Assembly: GCF_023008545.1 (NCBI RefSeq)
Contig: NZ_CP095397.1
Location: 744,001 to 808,000 of the forward strand
From: Natribaculum luteum
GTDB lineage: Archaea; Halobacteriota; Halobacteria; Halobacteriales; Natrialbaceae
Length of the DNA: 64,000 nt
Reading direction: 5' to 3'
The notes under the pieces are model-generated. The model was not told the origin of the DNA, made no database searches, and saw nothing but the letters and a program-made list of their open reading frames with translations. Position 1 is the first letter of the stretch; every line of letters begins with the position of its first letter. Position numbers and translations under genes: made by a program. This document shows, in pieces, positions 3,350 to 37,746 of the stretch.

Positions 3350-4618
3350 TCAGTCGGACGCACCCATTCCGGACGCCGATTCGCTCGTGCCATCCGCCTC
3401 GGAACGGTGACGGCGGTGTTTGATGGCAGCCGTGATCCGATCGCCGGCTCGTCTGGCACCCGGAATGTTGGGCGCGTACGGGCCGACTGCCCCGAGGGCG
3501 AGCGCTCCGGAGACATACAGCGGAACGAACCAGCCGTCGTCGCGCTGCCAGGCGAGTGTGTCGTCGTCGAGAACGGGCATCCCTCGATACCCTCGAGCCA
3601 GTTCGAGTTCGTCGGCGATTCGATCGACGAACGGGTGATCGAACACGGGTTCGAATCCAGTCGCGAGAACGACGCGGTCTCCGAGCAACTGCAACCCGTG
3701 ATCCAGGGAGAGCCGAACCGACCCGTCTTCGACCGTCGCCGAGTCGACCGCACCCTGTGCGAGCGTAAGCTCGCCCTCGTTGATCCGGTTCCCCAACTCC
3801 TGATAGAGGTACGGTGGAATCGTCGCAGCGTTTCTAGCATCCGAAATCACCTCGAACCGGTCACTCGATCCCGGTGGGTGTATGTGGAGGGTTTCTTCGA
3901 CGTGTGACCAGTTGATCCACGGCGGATCCGCCTCGGAGACCTCCCACTCGAGCGGATGCCGTGATAGCAAGGTCACCGACTCTGTCTCGCTCAGTTCACA
4001 CGCGAGTTGCGCGGCCGTGATGCCGCCGCCGACGACGATCGTTCGATCGGCCGACGCGTCGGGGTCGAACCCCTCCCAGATGTGTTCGACGCCATCGAGA
4101 CCGGCGGCCCAGTCGGGCCACCGATAGTGCCCGCCGTGGCCAATCGCCAAGATGCAGTAATTGGTATCGATGGGACCTTCGGTTGTCTCGAGCCGAAGAC
4201 CCGTCCCATCGGGGAGTTCATGTATCGCATCAACGGCGGCCCGACGATGCAGCGAGCCGAGATTCTTTCGATCGATCACGTAGTCCGAGTAGTCCAAAAA
4301 GAGGTCGAGCGACGGCCTCGGTGGGTAGTCGACCGTCGGAACGAGTTCGTCCTCGCGATCGTTCGCTTCGGCGAAACTCTCGAGCCCGAACGGTTCGGTT
4401 CCGACGTGGTGAACGAACGTCGATCGAAGTGCCTCCATGCCGCAGGCCTTTGCCTTCTCACGGAATGACGCCAGCAATCGGTCGTGGGGATCGACGATGA
4501 GAACGTCAGATCTGTCGAACGGAGCGTCTTCGAGGAGACGTTGGGCGAGGTACGTGCCGTGGATCCCTCCTCCGACGATGATGCAGCCGAATTCACGGGT
4601 TGGGTTGCCTGTCGTCAT
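3350..4618 (-). CDS. FAD/NAD(P)-binding flavoprotein (paralogue 2)
   Basis: 422 residues, convergent with paralogue 1 with a gap of about 38 nt. It has the same architecture: IVGGGIHGTYLAQRL for FAD, VVGGGITAAQLA for NAD(P), and VLATGFEPVF near residue 320. The HVGTEPFGLESFA segment and PPYLYQELG match the paralogue. The C-terminus ends in a basic and Ser-rich tail after GARRAGDRI. The gene diverges from a CobW/COG0523 remnant across a 103-nt AT-rich spacer. In known haloarchaeal genomes such proteins are annotated only as FAD/NAD(P)-binding; the reaction is not known from the sequence. Confidence 0.65.
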   Translation of the reverse strand: MTTGNPTREFGCIIVGGGIHGTYLAQRLLEDAPFDRSDVLIVDPHDRLLASFREKAKACGMEALRSTFVHHVGTEPFGLESFAEANDREDELVPTVDYPPRPSLDLFLDYSDYVIDRKNLGSLHRRAAVDAIHELPDGTGLRLETTEGPIDTNYCILAIGHGGHYRWPDWAAGLDGVEHIWEGFDPDASADRTIVVGGGITAAQLACELSETESVTLLSRHPLEWEVSEADPPWINWSHVEETLHIHPPGSSDRFEVISDARNAATIPPYLYQELGNRINEGELTLAQGAVDSATVEDGSVRLSLDHGLQLLGDRVVLATGFEPVFDHPFVDRIADELELARGYRGMPVLDDDTLAWQRDDGWFVPLYVSGALALGAVGPYAPNIPGARRAGDRITAAIKHRRHRSEADGTSESASGMGASD

Positions 4619-4721
4619 ATGAGATACGTCGCGTCAGTGCTCGAAGACAACCCTCTATAGTTAATAAGAACTTGGATATTATACTAGTATGTATTATTTC
4701 GAAGAATGGTATTAGCAACGT
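4619..4721. promoter_or_regulatory. Divergent promoter spacer between flavoprotein and cobW remnant
   Basis: This AT-rich spacer contains TTAACTATAGAG on the minus strand about 45 nt upstream of the flavoprotein ATG, and TATTATACTAGTATG on the plus strand upstream of the CobW start. Both look like archaeal TATA boxes. A shared metal-responsive regulator is possible but no clear operator is seen. Confidence 0.35.
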
Positions 4722-4850
4722 ATGGAAGAGCAGACGATCCCGGTGACGGTGCTCTCCGGGACACTCGGTGCCGGCAAGACGACCACGCTCAATCACGTCT
4801 TGGGCGAGAGCGGCGACCGCGATCTCGCCGTTCTCGTCAACGATATGGAT
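4722..4850 (+). pseudogene. COG0523 (CobW-like) GTPase, N-terminal remnant
   Basis: The first 43 residues are a clear COG0523 start: IPVTVLSGTLGAGKTTTLNH (Walker A) and DLAVLVNDM. Full proteins run to 350-400 residues with a CxCC motif; here homology stops after NDMD. The frame continues through about 95 nt of sequence I do not recognise and then antisense through a nuclease remnant, stopping at 5001. The gene is therefore cut by a deletion or rearrangement. These GTPases are zinc or cobalt metallochaperones in known systems. Confidence 0.7.
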
Positions 4851-4942
4851 ATACTGCGAGCTTGCATCGCCTACGAAAACCAGCACCAACAACGCGTCCC
4901 GATTCTCCGATTGCTCGAGACGCGGACTAACGAACTCCGCTC

Positions 4943-29472: not shown

Positions 29473-31404
29473 ATGAGCACAACGCCCACCGACGCGCGAG
29501 CGGTCGTCGAGCCGACGAGTGATGAGACCGAGTTCGTCTTCTTCAGCGGCAAAGGCGGCGTCGGCAAGAGCACCGTGAGCTGCGCGACGGCAACCTGGCT
29601 CGCCGACAACGACTACGAGACGCTGTTGGTGACGACCGACCCTGCGCCGAATCTCTCGGACATCTTTGGCCAGGAGATCGGCCACGAGGTCACCGCTATC
29701 GACGACATCGAGAAGCTTTCGGCCATCGAGATCGATCCGGACACCGCAGCCGAGGAGTACCGTCAAGAGACGATCGAACCGATGCGCGAACTGCTCGGCG
29801 AGGATCAGATCGAGACGGTCGAAGAACAGCTTAACAGTCCCTGTGTCGAGGAGATCGCCGCCTTCGATAACTTCGTTGACTTCATGGATAGCCCGGAGTA
29901 CGACGTCGTCGTCTTCGACACCGCCCCCACGGGACACACCATCCGCCTGATGGAATTGCCCTCCGACTGGAACGCCGAACTGGAGAAGGGCGGCTCGACC
30001 TGTATCGGGCCGGCAGCCTCGATGGAGGAGCGAAAACAGGACTACGAGCGTGCCATCGACACACTCCAGGACGATGAGCGGACTTCATTCGCGTTCGTCG
30101 GCAAGCCCAAGGACTCTTCGATCGACGAGATTGAACGCAGCGCGAGCGACCTCAGCGAGCTCGGGATCGAGTCCCAACTGCTGATCATCAACGGCTACCT
30201 GCCCGAGTCAGTGTGTGAAGATCCATTCTTCGAGGGGAAGCGTGAAGACGAGCAGGCCGTTATCGAGCGCGCACGGACGGAGCTCGACGCGAACGCGATG
30301 GCGACGTACCCACTCCAACCCGGCGAGATTGCAGGACTTGACCTGCTCGCAGACGTCGGCAGCGTCCTCTACGGTGGCAACGAGGCGGCCGTCGACGTCG
30401 GAACGGCAACCAACGTAGACGCCGAGACCGCAGTTGACTTCGATTCGATGGCTGACGCCGAGGCGGTCGCCGACCAGCTTCAACCGGGCGACGAGACGCG
30501 GTACCTTTTCTTCACCGGGAAGGGCGGCGTCGGCAAGAGTACGATCGCTTCGACGGCGGCAACGAAGCTCGCCGAAGCGGGCCACGAGACGCTCGTCATC
30601 ACCACCGACCCGGCCGCCCATCTTGAGGACATCTTCGGCGAGCCGGTCGGCCACGAGCCGACCTCGGTCAGCCAGGCGAACCTCGACGCGGCACGGATCG
30701 ACCAGGAGAAAGCGCTTGAGGAGTACCGCACGCAGGTCCTCAACCACGTCACCGAGATGTACGAGGACAAGGAGGACACCCAGATCGACGTGGACGCGGC
30801 GATCGCGAACGTTGAAGAGGAACTGGAGTCACCGTGTGCCGAAGAGATGGCTGCCCTCGAAAAGTTCGTGAGCTATTTCGACGAGGACGGGTACGATGTC
30901 GTCGTCTTCGACACCGCCCCCACAGGGCACACACTCCGACTCCTCGAACTTCCCTCCGACTGGAAGGGGTTCATGGACCTCGGTTCGCTGACGAAGGGCG
31001 CCGCACCCGCGAAAGCCGACCAGTACGACGAAGTCATCGAGACGATGAAAGATCCAAAACGGAGTACCTTCGCATTCGTGATGTACCCCGAGTACACCCC
31101 GATGATGGAGGCCTACCGGGCTGCCGCGGATCTCGAAAATCAAGTTGGGATCGAGACCTCGCTGGTGGTAGCGAACTACCTGCTCCCCGAGGAATACGGC
31201 GACAATGCCTTCTTTGAGAACCGCCGCGCCCAGCAGGAGAAGTACCTCGGCGAGATCAGCGATCGGTTCGACGTGCCGATGATGCTTGCCCCGCTGCGCC
31301 AGGACGAGCCGGTCGGACTAGACGAACTGCGCGCGTTCGGTGAGGAGATCACCGGGCTGGACGATATCACTAAGGAGACGGAACAGGAGGTGACGGCGTC
31401 GTGA
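29473..31404 (+). CDS. arsA: ArsA, arsenite-activated ATPase with two ATPase halves
   Basis: 643 residues. Both halves have a deviant Walker A (FSGKGGVGKST at about 25-34 and FTGKGGVGKST at about 348-357), a TTDPAxxLxDIFG segment and the DTAPTGHT signal. Metal-site cysteines are seen in SPCVEEIAAF (Cys124), GGSTCIGPA (Cys177) and SPCAEEMAAL (second half). The linker near 300-340 is acidic. ArsA hydrolyses ATP to drive As(III) efflux with a membrane partner; here acr3 is 5 kb away in its own unit. arsD precedes it, and the stop overlaps the GTG of the next gene, so arsD-arsA-hcsL-hcsS form an operon. Confidence 0.95.
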   Translation: MSTTPTDARAVVEPTSDETEFVFFSGKGGVGKSTVSCATATWLADNDYETLLVTTDPAPNLSDIFGQEIGHEVTAIDDIEKLSAIEIDPDTAAEEYRQETIEPMRELLGEDQIETVEEQLNSPCVEEIAAFDNFVDFMDSPEYDVVVFDTAPTGHTIRLMELPSDWNAELEKGGSTCIGPAASMEERKQDYERAIDTLQDDERTSFAFVGKPKDSSIDEIERSASDLSELGIESQLLIINGYLPESVCEDPFFEGKREDEQAVIERARTELDANAMATYPLQPGEIAGLDLLADVGSVLYGGNEAAVDVGTATNVDAETAVDFDSMADAEAVADQLQPGDETRYLFFTGKGGVGKSTIASTAATKLAEAGHETLVITTDPAAHLEDIFGEPVGHEPTSVSQANLDAARIDQEKALEEYRTQVLNHVTEMYEDKEDTQIDVDAAIANVEEELESPCAEEMAALEKFVSYFDEDGYDVVVFDTAPTGHTLRLLELPSDWKGFMDLGSLTKGAAPAKADQYDEVIETMKDPKRSTFAFVMYPEYTPMMEAYRAAADLENQVGIETSLVVANYLLPEEYGDNAFFENRRAQQEKYLGEISDRFDVPMMLAPLRQDEPVGLDELRAFGEEITGLDDITKETEQEVTAS

Positions 31405-31630
31405 GTGAAGCTGTGTCAGAAGAGCCAGCCGTCGAAGAGTCGCTGCAGGCGTTCATCGAGACGCTCTGCGACTCAGAGACCTATCAACAGTTCGTAGACG
31501 CAAGCGAGCAACTCGAAGCGGACGATGAAGCGCAGTCACTGCTCGAAGCGTACCAGCAAAAACAACAGCAGTTGCAAGGAGACGAGTTCGACCCGTCGGT
31601 TATGAGCGAACTTCAGGAACTACAGACTGA

Positions 31631-32755
31631 TAGTGATTAGTTCGAATCTTTACCGGTAAGATACGGCCAAATGCTGGGTTCGCTGATTGTTTTTACACCT
31701 CGTGAGATGTAGTCTTTCAGCGACGAGAGATCAGGGACGAGTCGATACTTGAACCACTCTTGCAGCTGGTCCCAACACCCTTCGACGGCGTTCAATTCGG
31801 GGAGTTTTGACGGGAAGTACCAGACTTCGAGATCGTCTCCGCGCACGCACGAGACCGAACTGTCTCCGACAGTTTCGGTCTCGCGCTCACCACTCACGTG
31901 CTCCCAGAGATCCCTCGCATAGAAGTAGCCCGCTCGATCCAGAAACACCACTAACTCCTCACCGAACCGCTCGGTTAACGCCTCTAACAGCCGAATCCCA
32001 TGGTTCCGTGTGAGATTCTCTTCTGGTGCAGCAGCAGAAGAAGCTGTCACCGTCGTCGGTGACAGCGCCAGCACGGTCACTGAATCCCACGACGTTGCAA
32101 CCTCTATTGTCGGATTTGAGCCAATCGGGTAGAAGCCACGTCGTTGGACAGTTCCGACGTGTTTGTGTGCTGATCGACAACAACGACGGTTTTGTCGGTT
32201 AGTTCGGGTCGTTTTTTTCGACTGTTTCTTGGAACTCGGCTTTCTCTCAGGGTCGGCTTCATGATGTTGAGGCCGTGCTGTCCGCAAGGACAGCCGGCCT
32301 CTTTCAGCAAGTCGTACGCGTAGGTTTTCGTGGTATTCGACGCCGTATCCTCTTTGGCGTCGTGATGGAGCAACAGTTTCGCTGACCACGCTTGCTGGTC
32401 GTAGCCGAGTTCGGTCGGCGGCTGTTGCAGTTGTTCGAACAGTTGCTCACGGTCTTCGCCCTCGATTTTTGCTGGACCTCCTGGTCGAGGAGCGTCGTAC
32501 GGTGCCTGCTCGATCGGTTCTTCCTCGAACCGATCGAGCCAGTTGCGAATCGTTTTCTCGACAACACCGTGGCGATCAGCTAGTGTCTCCAGTTGATCGC
32601 CCTGCTTACGCCCAATCGCCGCGAGAACACGTTCTCGCGGCTTCCCTTTGTCGATCTGGTCCTTTAGATCATAGAGTTCTTCGAGCGTGATGTCGTCGAG
32701 CCGACCCATTACCAATACCAGTGTCTCTATAGGTAAAACATTTCCCTAGACACTA
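31631..32755 (-). mobile_element. IS630-family element inserted in the hcsL-like gene
   Basis: Ends TAGTG...TTTACC face each other over about 24 bp. TGA is repeated at 31628-31630 and 32756-32758. IS630 elements usually duplicate TA, and both ends here do carry TA. Only the TGA join restores the reading frame of the target gene. Confidence 0.65.
31637..32715 (-). pseudogene. IS630 transposase, multiply frameshifted
   Basis: The N-terminal part (32715 leftward) is a helix-turn-helix region: DDITLEELYDLKDQIDKGKP, then LADRHGVVEKTIRNWLDRFE. The catalytic part (DKTVVVVDQHT, VGTVQRRGFYPIGSN, LVVFLDRAGYFYA, LPELNAVEGCWDQLQEWFK) requires at least three frame changes between about 32290 and 32150. 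This goes beyond one recoding site, so the gene is dead. Confidence 0.7.
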
Positions 32756-32887
32756 TGAGCTCTCGAACAACGAGACGATCCAACAGCATCGGGCAGCGCA
32801 AGAGGAGCTCGTCGACCTTCTCGAGCAGACGAACGATGTGATCAGCAAGCAGATCAGACGGGAGTTCGCGCAGTTACTGGGAGGTGG

Positions 32888-33079
32888 GTGCTGTTGAGCT
32901 CTTCCGACGAAGAAGTTTTGGCCGCCGCCGAAGCACTCGGTGAGGACCTCGATATGGCGCAGTCGGAGGCGACAGCGGCCGAGTTCGAGGCGTTGTTGAT
33001 CGAGTGTAATGAAGCTATCAGCGACGAGATTGGTCTCGAGTACGGTGCAGTCTGCGACGCTGGGAGCGACTGCTGCTAA
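32888..33079 (+). CDS. Small acidic protein ending in Cys-Cys (HcsS-like)
   Basis: 63 residues from GTG 32888 (a TTG at 32894 is an alternative), overlapping the stop of the hcsL-like gene. Very acidic, helical (EEVLAAAEALGEDLDMAQSE), with Cys in IECNEAI and a C-terminus VCDAGSDCC. Both this and the preceding protein end in Cys-Cys-stop after a Gly or Asp stretch, suggesting a shared terminal thiol site for a soft metal such as As(III). A short inverted repeat (GCTGCT-aac-AGCAGC, 33072-33086) spans the stop codon. Intact, but its partner gene is split, and the IS may cut off transcription from arsD. Confidence 0.6.
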   Translation: MLLSSSDEEVLAAAEALGEDLDMAQSEATAAEFEALLIECNEAISDEIGLEYGAVCDAGSDCC

Positions 33080-33310: not shown

Positions 33311-33691
33311 CTAGTCAGTCTTGTCGGTAAGCGCGTAAGAGATCTCGAGCAACTGGAGAACTGCAGTGTCTCCAATTCGATAGTAGGTCCATTTGCCTTG
33401 ACGTCGGGTTTTGACTATCCCCGCGTCTTTGAGTTCTCGAAGGTGACTTGCGACCGTGGATTGGGGTGCATCGAGAACAACCTGTAGCTCACACGCACAC
33501 AACTCGCCTTCTCTGAGAGCTTCGAGAATTCGAATGCGGTGTTCGTTTGCCAGTGCCTTGAACACCGTAAGCTGCGCGTTCACTTGCTCGTCGTCTGGCG
33601 TAAGTTCAAATAGCGACGAGAGGCGATTCTCTGGGTCCTCATAGAGCCGGTCCAGCGTCTGTCGTGCCGATTCAGGTACTGAGTCAGCCAT
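33311..33691 (-). CDS. arsR: ArsR-family repressor 1
   Basis: 126 residues. The winged helix covers about 40-115: FKALANEHRIRILEAL, then ELCACELQVVLDAPQSTVAS (recognition helix), then a wing GKWTYYRIGD. The ELCACEL segment corresponds to the ELCVCDL metal-sensing motif of ArsR/SmtB, with two cysteines two apart. It should release DNA on binding As(III). It follows a 38-residue ORF with a 6-nt gap and faces away from the permease operon. The 15-residue acidic start before the fold is common in haloarchaeal members. Confidence 0.85.
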   Translation of the reverse strand: MADSVPESARQTLDRLYEDPENRLSSLFELTPDDEQVNAQLTVFKALANEHRIRILEALREGELCACELQVVLDAPQSTVASHLRELKDAGIVKTRRQGKWTYYRIGDTAVLQLLEISYALTDKTD

Positions 33692-33697
33692 CGTTGC

Positions 33698-33814
33698 TTA
33701 CTGTTTACCGGCAACATCTTTGAGTTCGGCGTCACAATTACAGGAGGTATCAGCGACGGCCGAATTCGCTCCAGCCAGTGCGTCCACAGCCTTGCTGACC
33801 GGAGAAGCTGCCAT
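33698..33814 (-). CDS. 38-residue ORF with CxC motif upstream of arsR
   Basis: The encoded peptide begins MAASPVSKAVDALAGA and contains DTSCNCDAELK. It ends 6 nt before the arsR start on the same strand. A second tiny ORF (35146-35259) starts MADPMVNKTVDAQDG and sits in the same way ahead of another gene of the island. The shared start pattern (MA, then V, then K, VDA) makes both credible. The CxC could bind As or another thiophilic metal. No known family comes to mind. Confidence 0.5.
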   Translation of the reverse strand: MAASPVSKAVDALAGANSAVADTSCNCDAELKDVAGKQ

Positions 33815-33919
33815 ACAAATCGTTAACGGCTGGTTCGCTGCTAAAGGTTTCGGTGAATGAACTCTCTCAGACGCGAGTCTAGAGGTCTTCGCGGTATACT
33901 GAAGATATTATCAGTCGAC

Positions 33920-33956
33920 TTACGCAACGACGTCAACCTGAACGCTGGCTTCGTTG
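33920..33956 (-). pseudogene. Last codons of a lost ridA gene
   Basis: On the minus strand NEASVQVDVVA plus stop closely matches the end of the intact RidA (GGASVQLDAVAAIE region); at DNA level CGTCAACCTGAACGCTGGC here pairs with CGTCAAGCTGAACGCTGGC at 35635. It sits just past the stop of the permease gene, so a ridA copy once stood there and was deleted. Confidence 0.5.
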
Positions 33957-33970
33957 AGTCAACTACGAAT

Positions 33971-34900
33971 CTAGAGTATTAGATTGAAGAGCAATCCAAT
34001 GATCAAGATACCTGTTGCCAATGTCGTCGCGTATGCCGCGATCAGTTCCTTCTTCATCACTTTGTTCAGGATCATGAACTGTGGGAACGAGAGTGCAGCA
34101 ACCGACATCATGAACGCCAGGCCCGTCCCAACCGGTAGTCCTTTCCCGATCAGCGATTCGACGACCGGTATGACACCGAGGATGTCGGTATACATCGGGA
34201 CACCGACGGCGACCGCGCCGAAGACGCCGAGCGGCCCCGACAGGTACTGTGTCACCAGTTCGCCGGGCAGGTAGCCGTGGATAGCTGCACCCGCTCCGAC
34301 GCCGACGATAACGTATGGCACGATTTCGACGATGATGTCTTTTGCCTCGACGTACGCCTCTCTGGCACGCTCTCTTCTCGAGGGTTCATCGATTTCGACA
34401 TCCGAGTCGCCGAAATTGAACTCCTCGATGTATCTGTCGAAGCCCAGTTTATTGAGCGTGTAACCGCTGGACATCCCGATCACGATCCCGCTCACCGCAT
34501 ACAGGGCTGTCAGTTTGAATCCGACGACGCCCGGCAACACGACGAGCGCAGCCTCGTTGATCATCGGCGAGACGGCGAGGAACGTGATCGTGACCCCGAA
34601 CGGGATTCCCGCACCGACCATTCCGAGGAATATCGGGATCGTCGAACAGGAGCAAAACGGGGAGACGATTCCGAGCAACGCAGCGAGTGCGTACCCCGTT
34701 ATTGCTCGCTTCCCTTGGAGATAGTCCCGGATCTTCTCCGGCGGAAAGTACGTTCGGAGGTACGTCACGCCGAAAATCACGACGATGAGTATCGAGAGGA
34801 TCTTCAGCGTGTCGTAGATCCAGAAATGAGCCGCCGCTCTCAGCGACCCCGTGAGTCCGAGAGCCTCGACTACGTATGTGGCTATCTGTTGAAAAACCAT
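33971..34900 (-). CDS. COG0701-type permease (ArsP/DUF318 family)
   Basis: 309 residues with about eight membrane segments. The signature SPFCSCSTIPIFLGMVGAG at about residue 80 carries the Cys pair typical of this permease family, and a second half repeats the pattern with PMYTDILGVIPVVESLIGKG. A charged central loop (DEPSRRERAREAYVEAKD) separates the halves. Known relatives export organoarsenicals (ArsP) or other metal complexes. The gene follows a thioredoxin-like gene with a 6-nt gap. The substrate here is probably a thiol-bound metalloid, by context. Confidence 0.8.
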   Translation of the reverse strand: MVFQQIATYVVEALGLTGSLRAAAHFWIYDTLKILSILIVVIFGVTYLRTYFPPEKIRDYLQGKRAITGYALAALLGIVSPFCSCSTIPIFLGMVGAGIPFGVTITFLAVSPMINEAALVVLPGVVGFKLTALYAVSGIVIGMSSGYTLNKLGFDRYIEEFNFGDSDVEIDEPSRRERAREAYVEAKDIIVEIVPYVIVGVGAGAAIHGYLPGELVTQYLSGPLGVFGAVAVGVPMYTDILGVIPVVESLIGKGLPVGTGLAFMMSVAALSFPQFMILNKVMKKELIAAYATTLATGILIIGLLFNLIL

Positions 34901-34906
34901 GGGTTC

Positions 34907-35149
34907 TTACAACCGGTCCTCGATGAGCTCCTGTAACTCGTCTTCAGACGGATTCGACCCGTTGAAGACCATTTCGCCGTCGATCTCGAAGCCTGGCGTG
35001 GACATAATGCCTTTCTCCGCCAGCTTCGCCATGTCCCCTTCCTTCTCTACGTCCGCGTCGAATCCGTTTTCGTCGACGACGTTCTGAGCTTTCTCTTTGA
35101 GTTGTGAGCAGTTGCTGCAACCGTCCGGTCCGTAAACGGTGATTTTCAT
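34907..35149 (-). CDS. Small thioredoxin-like redox protein
   Basis: 80 residues with the redox motif YGPDGCSNCSQL (CxxC) at the first strand, then EKEGDMAKLAEKGIMSTPGF with the cis-Pro of thioredoxin folds, and a final helix DELQELIEDRL. Its size matches MTH895/TM0996-type mini-thioredoxins, which regularly sit next to COG0701 permeases. It may reduce or deliver a thiol-bound metalloid to the permease. Start overlaps the stop of the 37-residue ORF (ATGA), so the three genes 35259-33971 form one operon. Confidence 0.8.
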   Translation of the reverse strand: MKITVYGPDGCSNCSQLKEKAQNVVDENGFDADVEKEGDMAKLAEKGIMSTPGFEIDGEMVFNGSNPSEDELQELIEDRL

Positions 35150-35259
35150 AGGTCACCTCCGGTTTTTTCGATTTCGCCGTTCCAACGCCGGGAGTTATCT
35201 GCCGTCAAATCGGTTCCATCCTGTGCGTCCACGGTCTTGTTGACCATTGGATCTGCCAT
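35146..35259 (-). CDS. 37-residue ORF coupled to the thioredoxin-like gene
   Basis: It encodes MADPMVNKTVDAQDGTDL followed by TADNSRRWNGEIEKTGG. The stop overlaps the next ATG by 4 nt. A TTTTATCGA box lies about 35 nt upstream (35293-35302) and fits an archaeal TATA element. It is similar in the first 12 residues to the 38-residue ORF before arsR. It has no cysteine, unlike that paralogue. Role unknown; it may be a leader-type or regulatory peptide. Confidence 0.5.
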   Translation of the reverse strand: MADPMVNKTVDAQDGTDLTADNSRRWNGEIEKTGGDL

Positions 35260-35615
35260 ACATATCGATAAAGTCCGGTGCGGTATTAGTACGTTTCGAT
35301 AAAACTCGATTTGTTCGTGCGAACCTCACTCAGAGGTAGTCCTCGAGAGGGGGTATATTACCAGTTTGGAAAAGACAAATATTGTGGATGGCTGGCTTGT
35401 TCGACAGAATAAGAGGTGATACATCCGGTGAACGCAAGTATACATCTGACTCGATCGGGTTCAGATCGGGTGCGACTGGACTCAAGTCGAGTGTCGGATA
35501 AATCGGGAACCTTCGATATGAGATCAATTCAGTCTACACAGGACGACTCACTTCGATACACTGTTTCTCGGATAACATTTAGCTATCCCACGAGAACCGT
35601 TCGAGAACGAAATCC
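35260..35615. other. Intergenic region with promoter of the permease operon
   Basis: Near 35270-35302 the minus strand has TTTATCGA twice, 30 nt apart, the outer one a likely TATA box. The remaining 300 nt hold no ORF with recognisable protein and no clear repeat family. Confidence 0.4.
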
Positions 35616-36038
35616 TCACTCGATTGCCGCAACCGCGTCAAGCTGAACGCTGGCACCACCAAGTAACTCCGAAACACCGACAACGGCCCGCGCTGGGAGC
35701 TGCTCACCGAATGCCTCGCGATAGACCTCGTTAACCGCGTCGTACTGCTCAAGGTCGGTGAGATACACCGTCACCTTGAGCACGTCTTCGAGCGTTCGGC
35801 CCTGTTCTTCGAGTGCCGTCTCGAGGTTCGAGAGCGCGCGGTTCATCTGTGCCGCCGCTGGCTGATCGCCGTCGACCACACCGTCCTCAGTTGGAAGTTG
35901 CCCCTCCAGAAACAGGAGGTCAGAACTCCCAGTTTTCGTGCCGTAGCCGCCGGTGAACGCCGTCCCGGCACGCTGTTTGCGACTCGAGACGCTTGCACGA
36001 GACGGCAACTGATGCTGATTGATGTTTGACTGTTGCAT
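35616..36038 (-). CDS. RidA/YjgF-family protein
   Basis: 140 residues. The core from about residue 40 has LFLEGQLPTEDGVVDGDQPA, an ALEEQGRTLEDVLKVTVYLT stretch with the conserved helix and strand, then AFGEQLPARAVVGVSELLGG where the Arg (PARAV) binds the imine substrate's carboxylate, and a closing beta strand. RidA proteins hydrolyse reactive enamine/imine intermediates. The 38-residue N-terminal extension is unusual. The gene diverges from arsR-acr3 over 147 bp that hold a CTCAATTGA half-site next to its start, so it may be under ArsR control. A TATA-like CTATAAG lies at 36060-36066. Confidence 0.8.
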   Translation of the reverse strand: MQQSNINQHQLPSRASVSSRKQRAGTAFTGGYGTKTGSSDLLFLEGQLPTEDGVVDGDQPAAAQMNRALSNLETALEEQGRTLEDVLKVTVYLTDLEQYDAVNEVYREAFGEQLPARAVVGVSELLGGASVQLDAVAAIE

Positions 36039-36185: not shown

Positions 36186-36587
36186 ATGATGTCAACAGCG
36201 ACCCAGCGTCTTCAGCGATATCTCGAGGGCGAACTCGAGGACTGTCGTCCCGAGGACGTCGATCAGCGACTCGACGAGCTCGATACGCTCGAGGCGGTGC
36301 TCTCGACCGAGCGGATTGACTCGGATCTCAACGTGCTAGCAGCGCTTGCGAACAAAACGCGGTACAAGCTCGTTCGGCTACTCGTCGCCGCTGACGGCGA
36401 GCTCTGTGTCTGTGAATTGAACGCAATGATCGATACGAGCGAGAGTGCCATCAGTCACGCACTCTCTGAGCTAACCGACGCCGGTCTGGTGACACGCCGG
36501 AAGGACGGGCGGTGGCGGAAGTATCGTGCCTCGAACAGCGCGGTTGCGATCCTGACGCTGTTGGACGGGATGATCACGGATGAGTAA
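36186..36587 (+). CDS. arsR: ArsR-family repressor 2
   Basis: 133 residues from the ATG at 36186 (ATG at 36189 also possible; the TTG at 36180 overlaps the operator). An acidic start (about 1-40) precedes the winged helix: LAALANKTRYKLVRLL, ELCVCELNAMIDTSESAISH (two Cys and the recognition helix), wing RRKDGRWRKYR. The ELCVCEL sequence is the classic As(III)-sensing site. The stop lies within the first codons of acr3 (8-nt overlap), so the two are coupled. Confidence 0.9.
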   Translation: MMSTATQRLQRYLEGELEDCRPEDVDQRLDELDTLEAVLSTERIDSDLNVLAALANKTRYKLVRLLVAADGELCVCELNAMIDTSESAISHALSELTDAGLVTRRKDGRWRKYRASNSAVAILTLLDGMITDE

Positions 36588-37746
36588 TACCGACGCGCAC
36601 GAACACGGCCCGAACTGTGGTTGCGAGAGCTGTGGCGATCCGCGGTCGATGGATTTTCTCGATAAGTATCTCACCGTCTGGATCTTCGGAGCGATGGCCA
36701 TCGGCGTGGGACTTGGTTTCGTCGCGCCGTCGGTCACACAGCCGATTCAAGAGTTCCACCTCGTCCAGATCGGTCTGATCGCGATGATGTATCCGCCGCT
36801 GGCGAAAGCGGACTACTCGCGGCTTCCAACCGTCTTTCGCAACTGGCGTGTCCTCGGATTGAGCCTCATTCAAAACTGGCTCATCGGTCCGACGCTGATG
36901 TTCGGACTCGCAGTCGTCTTCTTCAGTGGGCTCGTGCCCGGGCTTCCCGCACGCCCGGAGTACTTCCTCGGACTCGTCTTCATCGGGATGGCCCGGTGTA
37001 TCGCGATGGTGCTCGTCTGGAACGAACTCGCCGAGGGTTCGACCGAGTACGTGACTGGGCTGGTCGCCTTCAATAGTCTCTTCCAGATCGTCACCTATGG
37101 CGTCTACGTCTGGTTCTTCGGCCTGTTTCTCCCGCCGCTCCTTGGCATGGAGGCGCTCGTCGCCGGCATCGAGACGTTCAACGTAACGCCAGCGCAGGTG
37201 TTCAGAGCGATCGTCATTTTCCTCGGCATTCCCTTCGCCGGCGGCTTCCTTACCCGGTACATCGGAACGCGAACCAAAAGCGAGGAGTGGTACGAGGAGA
37301 CGTTTGTCCCGAAGATCGACCCGCTGACGCTGATTGCGTTGCTGTTTACCGTCATCGTGATGTTCGCGACTCAGGGCGAGGCCATCGTCGCATCGCCCGG
37401 TGATGTCCTCCTGATCGCCGTCCCGCTGACGATCTACTTCGTCGTCATGTTCCTCGTGAGTTTCGGGATGGGACGTGGCATCGGCGCGGACTACTCGACG
37501 ACGACCGCGATCGGGTTCACCGCCGCATCGAACAACTTCGAACTCGCAATCGCGGTTGCAGTCGCGGTGTTTGGCGTCGGTTCTGGCGTCGCTTTCACGA
37601 CCGTCGTCGGTCCGCTTATCGAGGTGCCGGTTCTACTCGCACTGGTCAACGTCGCACTGTACTTCCAGCGGCGCTTCGACTGGAGTGGTGCCACAACCGG
37701 ACAGCTCAACACACCTCCCTCCAATCCACCCGCGGAGGACGACTAA
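36580..37746 (+). CDS. acr3: Acr3-type arsenite efflux permease
   Basis: 388 residues with ten hydrophobic segments. Conserved Acr3 features are the PPLAKADYSRLP segment after TM2, the essential Cys in GMARCIAMVLVWNELAEG, and the glutamate in FTAASNNFELAIAVAVAVFG. The N-terminal cytosolic stretch HEHGPNCGCESCGDP adds three Cys and two His, a likely metal-handling extension absent from most bacterial Acr3. It exports As(OH)3 using the proton-motive force, perhaps helped by ArsA. It overlaps arsR2 and is followed after 9 nt by arsC, giving arsR-acr3-arsC. Confidence 0.95.
   Translation: MSNTDAHEHGPNCGCESCGDPRSMDFLDKYLTVWIFGAMAIGVGLGFVAPSVTQPIQEFHLVQIGLIAMMYPPLAKADYSRLPTVFRNWRVLGLSLIQNWLIGPTLMFGLAVVFFSGLVPGLPARPEYFLGLVFIGMARCIAMVLVWNELAEGSTEYVTGLVAFNSLFQIVTYGVYVWFFGLFLPPLLGMEALVAGIETFNVTPAQVFRAIVIFLGIPFAGGFLTRYIGTRTKSEEWYEETFVPKIDPLTLIALLFTVIVMFATQGEAIVASPGDVLLIAVPLTIYFVVMFLVSFGMGRGIGADYSTTTAIGFTAASNNFELAIAVAVAVFGVGSGVAFTTVVGPLIEVPVLLALVNVALYFQRRFDWSGATTGQLNTPPSNPPAEDD

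Follow-up and report, generated by a model that had tools for sequence, protein, structure and literature searches.

What do two very short open reading frames (ORFs) do at the head of arsenic-resistance (ars) genes, and is it their peptides or only their translation that matters? The question arises in an ars island of Natribaculum luteum, within a window of 64,000 nucleotides (contig NZ_CP095397.1, positions 744,001 to 808,000) to which all coordinates below refer. The initial annotation had described a 38-residue ORF with a CxC motif 6 nt before arsR and a 37-residue ORF overlapping a thioredoxin-like gene (trx), and both descriptions were confirmed. The former (33814-33698, minus strand; 38 aa, MAASPVSKAVDALAGANSAVADTSCNCDAELKDVAGKQ) contains CNC, and its TAA stop is followed by GCAACG and then by the arsR ATG at 33691, leaving a gap of exactly 6 nt. 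The latter (35259-35146, minus strand; 37 aa, MADPMVNKTVDAQDGTDLTADNSRRWNGEIEKTGGDL) is devoid of cysteine and terminates with a TGA that lies within ATGA. The suggestion that the two ORFs lead two operons stood in so far as two promoters are found, but the genes form a single minus-strand cluster, trx leader-trx-arsP-(promoter)-arsR leader-arsR, with the following features:

35260..35299, minus strand: predicted promoter/operator cassette of the trx leader, with BRE-like TCGAAACG (35299-35292), TATA-like ACTAATA, and TATCGATATGT abutting the ATG
35146..35259, minus strand: trx leader ORF (uORF), 37 codons, its stop overlapping trx as ATGA
35155..35160, minus strand: GGAGGT, Shine-Dalgarno-like, within the trx leader and 5 nt upstream of the trx ATG
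34907..35149, minus strand: thioredoxin-like gene (trx), MTH895/ArsE family (TIGR00412, E 1.4e-21, above the curated cut-off; PF13192)
33971..34900, minus strand: ArsP_1 permease (PF03773, E 1.6e-57), with two Cys only (C83, C85)
33815..33853, minus strand: predicted promoter/operator cassette of the arsR leader, with CCGAAACC, TTTAGC, and TAACGATTTGT abutting the ATG
33698..33814, minus strand: arsR leader ORF, 38 codons, apparently a divergent CC peptide of the family described below, with CNC for CC
33311..33691, minus strand: arsR, ArsR/SmtB metalloregulator (NF033788, E 2.6e-28, 97.7 bits against a cut-off of 55)

The arsR product carries the ELCxC motif of ArsR/SmtB proteins (GELCACEL). 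The host genome carries trx-arsP-arsR a second time (L002/L051).

The two leaders are related to one another. The common start MA..V.K.VDA, to which the initial annotation had drawn attention, is real and exceeds chance when the ORF bodies are aligned at the DNA level. The alignment has 59 identical columns out of 83 and a score of 42, reached by none of 2,000 base shuffles and none of 10,000 codon shuffles (best codon shuffle, 34). The 30 nt 5' of both ATGs are also similar, more weakly (p about 0.01), and the two promoters share a layout comprising a BRE-like CGAAA, a TATA-like box and, abutting the ATG, TATCGATATGT or a variant of it; the same layout is seen in CC-peptide operons. The trx-leader cassette is conserved in 24 loci, with 40 nt between the BRE-like box and the ATG wherever the ATG is present. 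A search of 391 haloarchaeal genomes with the trx promoter pattern returned only the trx operon and one CC-peptide/arsR operon (L139), and the reversed-pattern control returned 0 matches in the same genomes. The kinship of the trx leader to the CC-peptide cassette is based on the DNA match and the common promoter, not on the CC profile, against which the window's trx leader scores 1.0 bit, not above shuffles. A strongly conserved block, TATCGATATGTATG, sits on the start codon and is a putative ArsR site overlapping the leader start. Because TATCGATATGT directly abuts the ATG, the trx leader is predicted to start leaderless; transcription start and operator are both placed here from the DNA sequence.

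The initial annotation had tied its proposal to conservation of the small ORFs at related loci, and for the 37-aa ORF such conservation is found. At 20 of the 24 orthologous haloarchaeal loci with the trx promoter, a leader runs from the same ATG and stops exactly in ATGA. Its length ranges from 25 to 38 codons, and the ATG-to-ATG distances to trx fall into six classes (74, 80, 83, 89, 110 and 113), all 2 mod 3; hence indels in the leader keep the frame to ATGA. An intact leader is missing in Halobellus (L028, L057) and Halolamina (L052, L063), so it is not indispensable. GGAGG, AGAGG or GGAG precedes the trx ATG in most loci, and GGAGGT does so in the window. The pooled pN/pS of the leader, 0.81 in group A and 0.79 in group B, equals the null obtained from shuffled alignment columns (0.88 and 0.81, respectively); in the same loci pN/pS is 0.08-0.12 in trx and arsR. 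The frame-shifted control readings were noisy (frame +2 yielded 0.39 in the small group A), and the column-shuffle null and group B were therefore relied on instead. For the permease, the group A value of 0.485 was left out, inflated as it is by a likely frameshift in L069 (Natrinema hispanicum DSM 18328). In that locus the permease (4001-4928) is apparently frameshifted and one base longer, with many extra Cys in the shifted reading, and the arsR leader overlaps arsR as ATGA in place of TAA plus 6 nt.

By these measures the trx leader appears to evolve neutrally in its amino acids but retains its start, reading frame and ATGA stop. The earlier idea of a metal-sensing peptide or small chaperone finds no support for this ORF, which has no cysteine in the window and neutral amino acids throughout the loci. 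In Haloferax volcanii, genes that overlap as AUGA and have a Shine-Dalgarno (SD) motif are translated only if the gene upstream is, and an SD motif does not support de novo initiation (PMC6728339). Translational coupling is limited to genes that overlap or lie very close together; in E. coli it already works with 15 nt of the preceding gene (PMC10666635). The trx leader and trx have the makings of such a pair, with a -4 nt ATGA overlap and an SD motif within the 3'-terminal part of the leader. Since de novo initiation at SD motifs does not occur in haloarchaea, the leader probably loads ribosomes; the 37-aa ORF is most likely a leaderless, cis-acting ORF that delivers ribosomes to trx by termination-reinitiation.

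The second operon retrieved by the promoter pattern, L139, consists of the leader MANSLLGKITDTLFGSESETDGDACCGVEIEEVGDGE, arsR and a permease gene. This leader was used as a query and, subsequently, a profile built from 19 members (A3) identified CC peptides in 47 of 322 haloarchaeal genomes, at 51 places in all, with a gap between these matches and the noise. All 51 places were checked and have arsR directly downstream, and an ArsP permease follows at every place where the contig continues. The 14 more distant permease loci (about 32-37% identical) all have a CC peptide. The peptides are 34-47 aa long and comprise an N-terminal helix-like segment, an acidic linker and CC-x3-[IV]EE. The consensus begins M-x-S-L-x-G-R-I-x-D-R-L and, after the linker, reads CC-x3-[IV]-E-E; the only invariant residues are the M, both C and one E. 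Purifying selection is seen in three subgroups, with pN/pS of 0.24, 0.24 and 0.31 compared with 0.78-0.80 after shuffling (0 of 500 shuffles as low), and change in the family is biased to third positions. The distance to arsR is conserved at 5-6 nt in several subgroups and varies widely between subgroups. The neighbouring genes include arsD, arsA, ACR3 and arsenite methyltransferase.

No Pfam or NCBIfam model matches the CC peptides. Where listed in plasmid records they are a 'hypothetical protein' (WP_158295129.1, WP_158228723.1), and elsewhere they are absent from the gene table, which is known to be incomplete. The CC peptides are a widespread, uncatalogued haloarchaeal small-protein family. 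A survey of small ORFs with CC-x-[IV]E around 62 bacterial or other COG0701 loci gave a single chance-looking match, so no bacterial CC family is recognised. In L046 and L195 a long variant before arsR contains four CC units (DCCGPHIEEIG..DCCGPQTEDVG..DCCGSQTEDVE..RCCE), which looks like a repetition of the metal-binding unit. In L211 (Halorubrum tebenquichense, G177) an in-frame stop cuts the peptide soon after the CC motif; the same genome also has a trx-type operon. The initial proposal of a small thiol protein is thus supported for the arsR-leader family, with its conserved CC, purifying selection and invariable position before arsR, but not for the trx leader. The CC peptide would act as a dithiol carrier of trivalent arsenic, delivering it either to ArsR or to the permease.

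The window's own arsR leader lies directly 5' of arsR on the same strand and is a divergent relative of this family rather than a typical member, because it has CNC in place of the vicinal CC. Its score against the CC-family profile is 13.6 bits, reached by none of 2,000 shuffles in a single-sequence test, and it was not detected in the genome-wide profile search of 322 genomes. A tblastn search with the 38-aa ORF alone gave chance matches only; its conservation at related loci, for which the initial annotation had proposed a homologue search, is evident through the CC family before arsR. A Natrinema leader scores 18.6 bits against the same profile. Cysteines have been lost from the arsR leader in Natrinema, Halomicrococcus and relatives, so operons of the window's type do not retain a thiol function. 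Among four Natrinema arsR leaders pN/pS is 0.58, which is not significant for sequences this similar. A C(P)XCG zinc-finger micro-protein was considered and rejected, as the two C(P)XCG motifs are absent and only CC(C) or CNC is present. Rfam gave no match up to E 0.1, and profile searches of the PDB returned nothing of use. For the trx leader, a role as a classical attenuating leader is unsupported, given the lack of an Rfam match and of conservation of the peptide sequence.

The operons are of two types. Type a consists of CC peptide-arsR-arsP with no ArsE-type thioredoxin nearby, and in about 25 of the 29 loci checked its permease has an extra loop Cys pair (CSC, CSEC or CC). Type b, that of the window, consists of trx-arsP-arsR. 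Its permease never has the extra pair, and every complete, unshifted copy contains only C83 and C85. The type b ArsRs fall with 26 type a ArsRs within one supported clade (98/99), in a tree of few columns whose finer branching is uncertain, and the CC-peptide layout is therefore plausibly ancestral. The type b permease is 40-54% identical to bacterial ones, compared with about 32% to type a permeases, and its bacterial relatives have a thioredoxin nearby in 57 of the 63 loci checked. This suggests that a bacterial-like trx-arsP pair joined a haloarchaeal arsR. In type b the dithiol role may have passed to the thioredoxin; the loss of cysteines from type b leaders would then be explained.

The reading that we favor, at a probability of roughly 0.6, is that both ORFs descend from one ancestral promoter-operator-leader cassette of haloarchaeal arsR operons, in which the CC peptide is a real small protein and the trx copy a ribosome-delivery ORF. 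The ancestral promoter, with the putative ArsR site TATCGATATGTATG over the start, would have produced a probably leaderless mRNA whose first cistron was a CC peptide of 34-47 aa, followed by arsR and then by the ArsP permease. With its vicinal thiols the peptide most likely binds trivalent arsenic or methylarsenic, which it would transfer to ArsR or to the Cys pair that the permease has in a cytosolic loop. In operons of the window's type, the bacterial-like trx-arsP pair would have been joined to this arsR. The cassette before arsR would persist there with a divergent peptide, the 38-aa ORF with its CNC kept. In the copy before trx, the peptide would have lost its cysteines and its sequence constraint, leaving an ORF open to ATGA behind GGAGG that loads ribosomes at the 5' end for termination-reinitiation at trx. 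We infer this direction of evolution from the ArsR clade and the permease identities. A more specific version is tentative and has clearly less than an even chance: the CC peptide would be a new arsenic micro-protein, a dithiol carrier to the matching permease Cys pair or to ArsR, made redundant by the takeover of the bacterial trx-permease pair, and its copy would have been reused as a ribosome-loading ORF for an SD-type gene.

Three other explanations account for parts of these observations. If all leaders, CC peptides included, were ribosome-loading uORFs devoid of peptide function, the trx leader would fit fully, and so would the position of the arsR leader within 6 nt of arsR and the lost Cys part in Natrinema. 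However, a pure uORF has no need of amino acids under purifying selection or of an invariant CC and E, and we regard this explanation as improbable. Still less probable is a cis-acting leader that tunes arsR translation to the metalloid or thiol state, sensed by the nascent peptide or through the behaviour of a ribosome at the Cys codons. A short first cistron with Cys codons near its end, spaced a constant 5-6 nt from arsR in several subgroups, is what such a leader would look like, but some members run well past the CC motif or have several CC units (L046), the spacing differs widely between subgroups, and Rfam has no match. To our knowledge there is no archaeal precedent for a cis-acting peptide leader that senses metalloids or thiols.

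It is very unlikely that the conservation reflects DNA elements, such as an operator reaching into the ORF, with the reading frames as by-products. The strongly conserved block on the start codon is as this explanation would have it, yet it is at odds with the frame-keeping indels of the trx leader in all six length classes and with the third-position bias of change in the CC family.

Other parts of the island contain further arsenic genes. A haloarchaeal ArsA ATPase (29473-31404, plus strand; NF041417, 1180 bits) adjoins hcsL, which is split into two parts matching NF041416 positions 1-68 and 69-113 (31401-31640 and about 32755-32898, plus strand), with an inserted minus-strand transposase-like region (about 31640-32750) between them. 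HcsS is a 63-aa ORF (32888-33079, plus strand) in the same island as arsA that ends in CC-stop and matches NF041415 with an E value of 3e-26. On the other side of the cluster, a second arsR (ELCVCEL) precedes an ACR3 arsenite efflux gene (36189-37746, plus strand) and is divergent from a RidA-family gene (35616-36038). In the Halobacterium records L226 and L229, CC-peptide operons likewise have RidA and ACR3 genes nearby.

With the CC peptides, arsenic resistance operons gain a widespread, uncatalogued small-protein family. Two related leaders at one locus with opposite selection signatures provide a natural pair that separates a protein product from the act of translation. The trx leader also suggests how bacterial SD-start genes become translatable in haloarchaea.

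The CC peptides resemble several known small proteins. ArsD is an arsenic metallochaperone, a small Cys-containing protein of ars loci with vicinal Cys, and the CC peptides share its small size, cysteines, genomic setting and vicinal Cys pair. However, they are 34-47 aa long with mostly a single CC unit, neither they nor the window leaders match a Pfam or NCBIfam ArsD model, and a separate arsD adjoins the CC peptide in Halobacterium sp. BOL4-2 and Halorubrum ezzemoulense. The Halo-CC-star proteins HcsS and HcsL (NF041415, NF041416) are likewise small haloarchaeal CC proteins in ars islands, and the CC peptides match neither model, whereas the window's HcsS, used as a control, does. Halobacterium Brz (PMC2253796) is comparable in layout, since this small Cys protein is encoded on the same strand as the gene that it regulates and immediately before it; Brz, however, is a zinc finger acting on bop. 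The trx leader shares the ATGA gene pair with the TeRe system of Haloferax volcanii (PMC6728339, PMC10666635), but here the upstream cistron is a predicted leaderless ORF of 25-38 codons with neutral sequence, not a normal gene. Closest in concept are the ribosome-'delivering' uORFs (PMC12548453), in which a short ORF is proposed to drive translation of the coupled gene; what sets the present case apart is comparative haloarchaeal evidence and a likely descent from an apparently protein-coding cassette.
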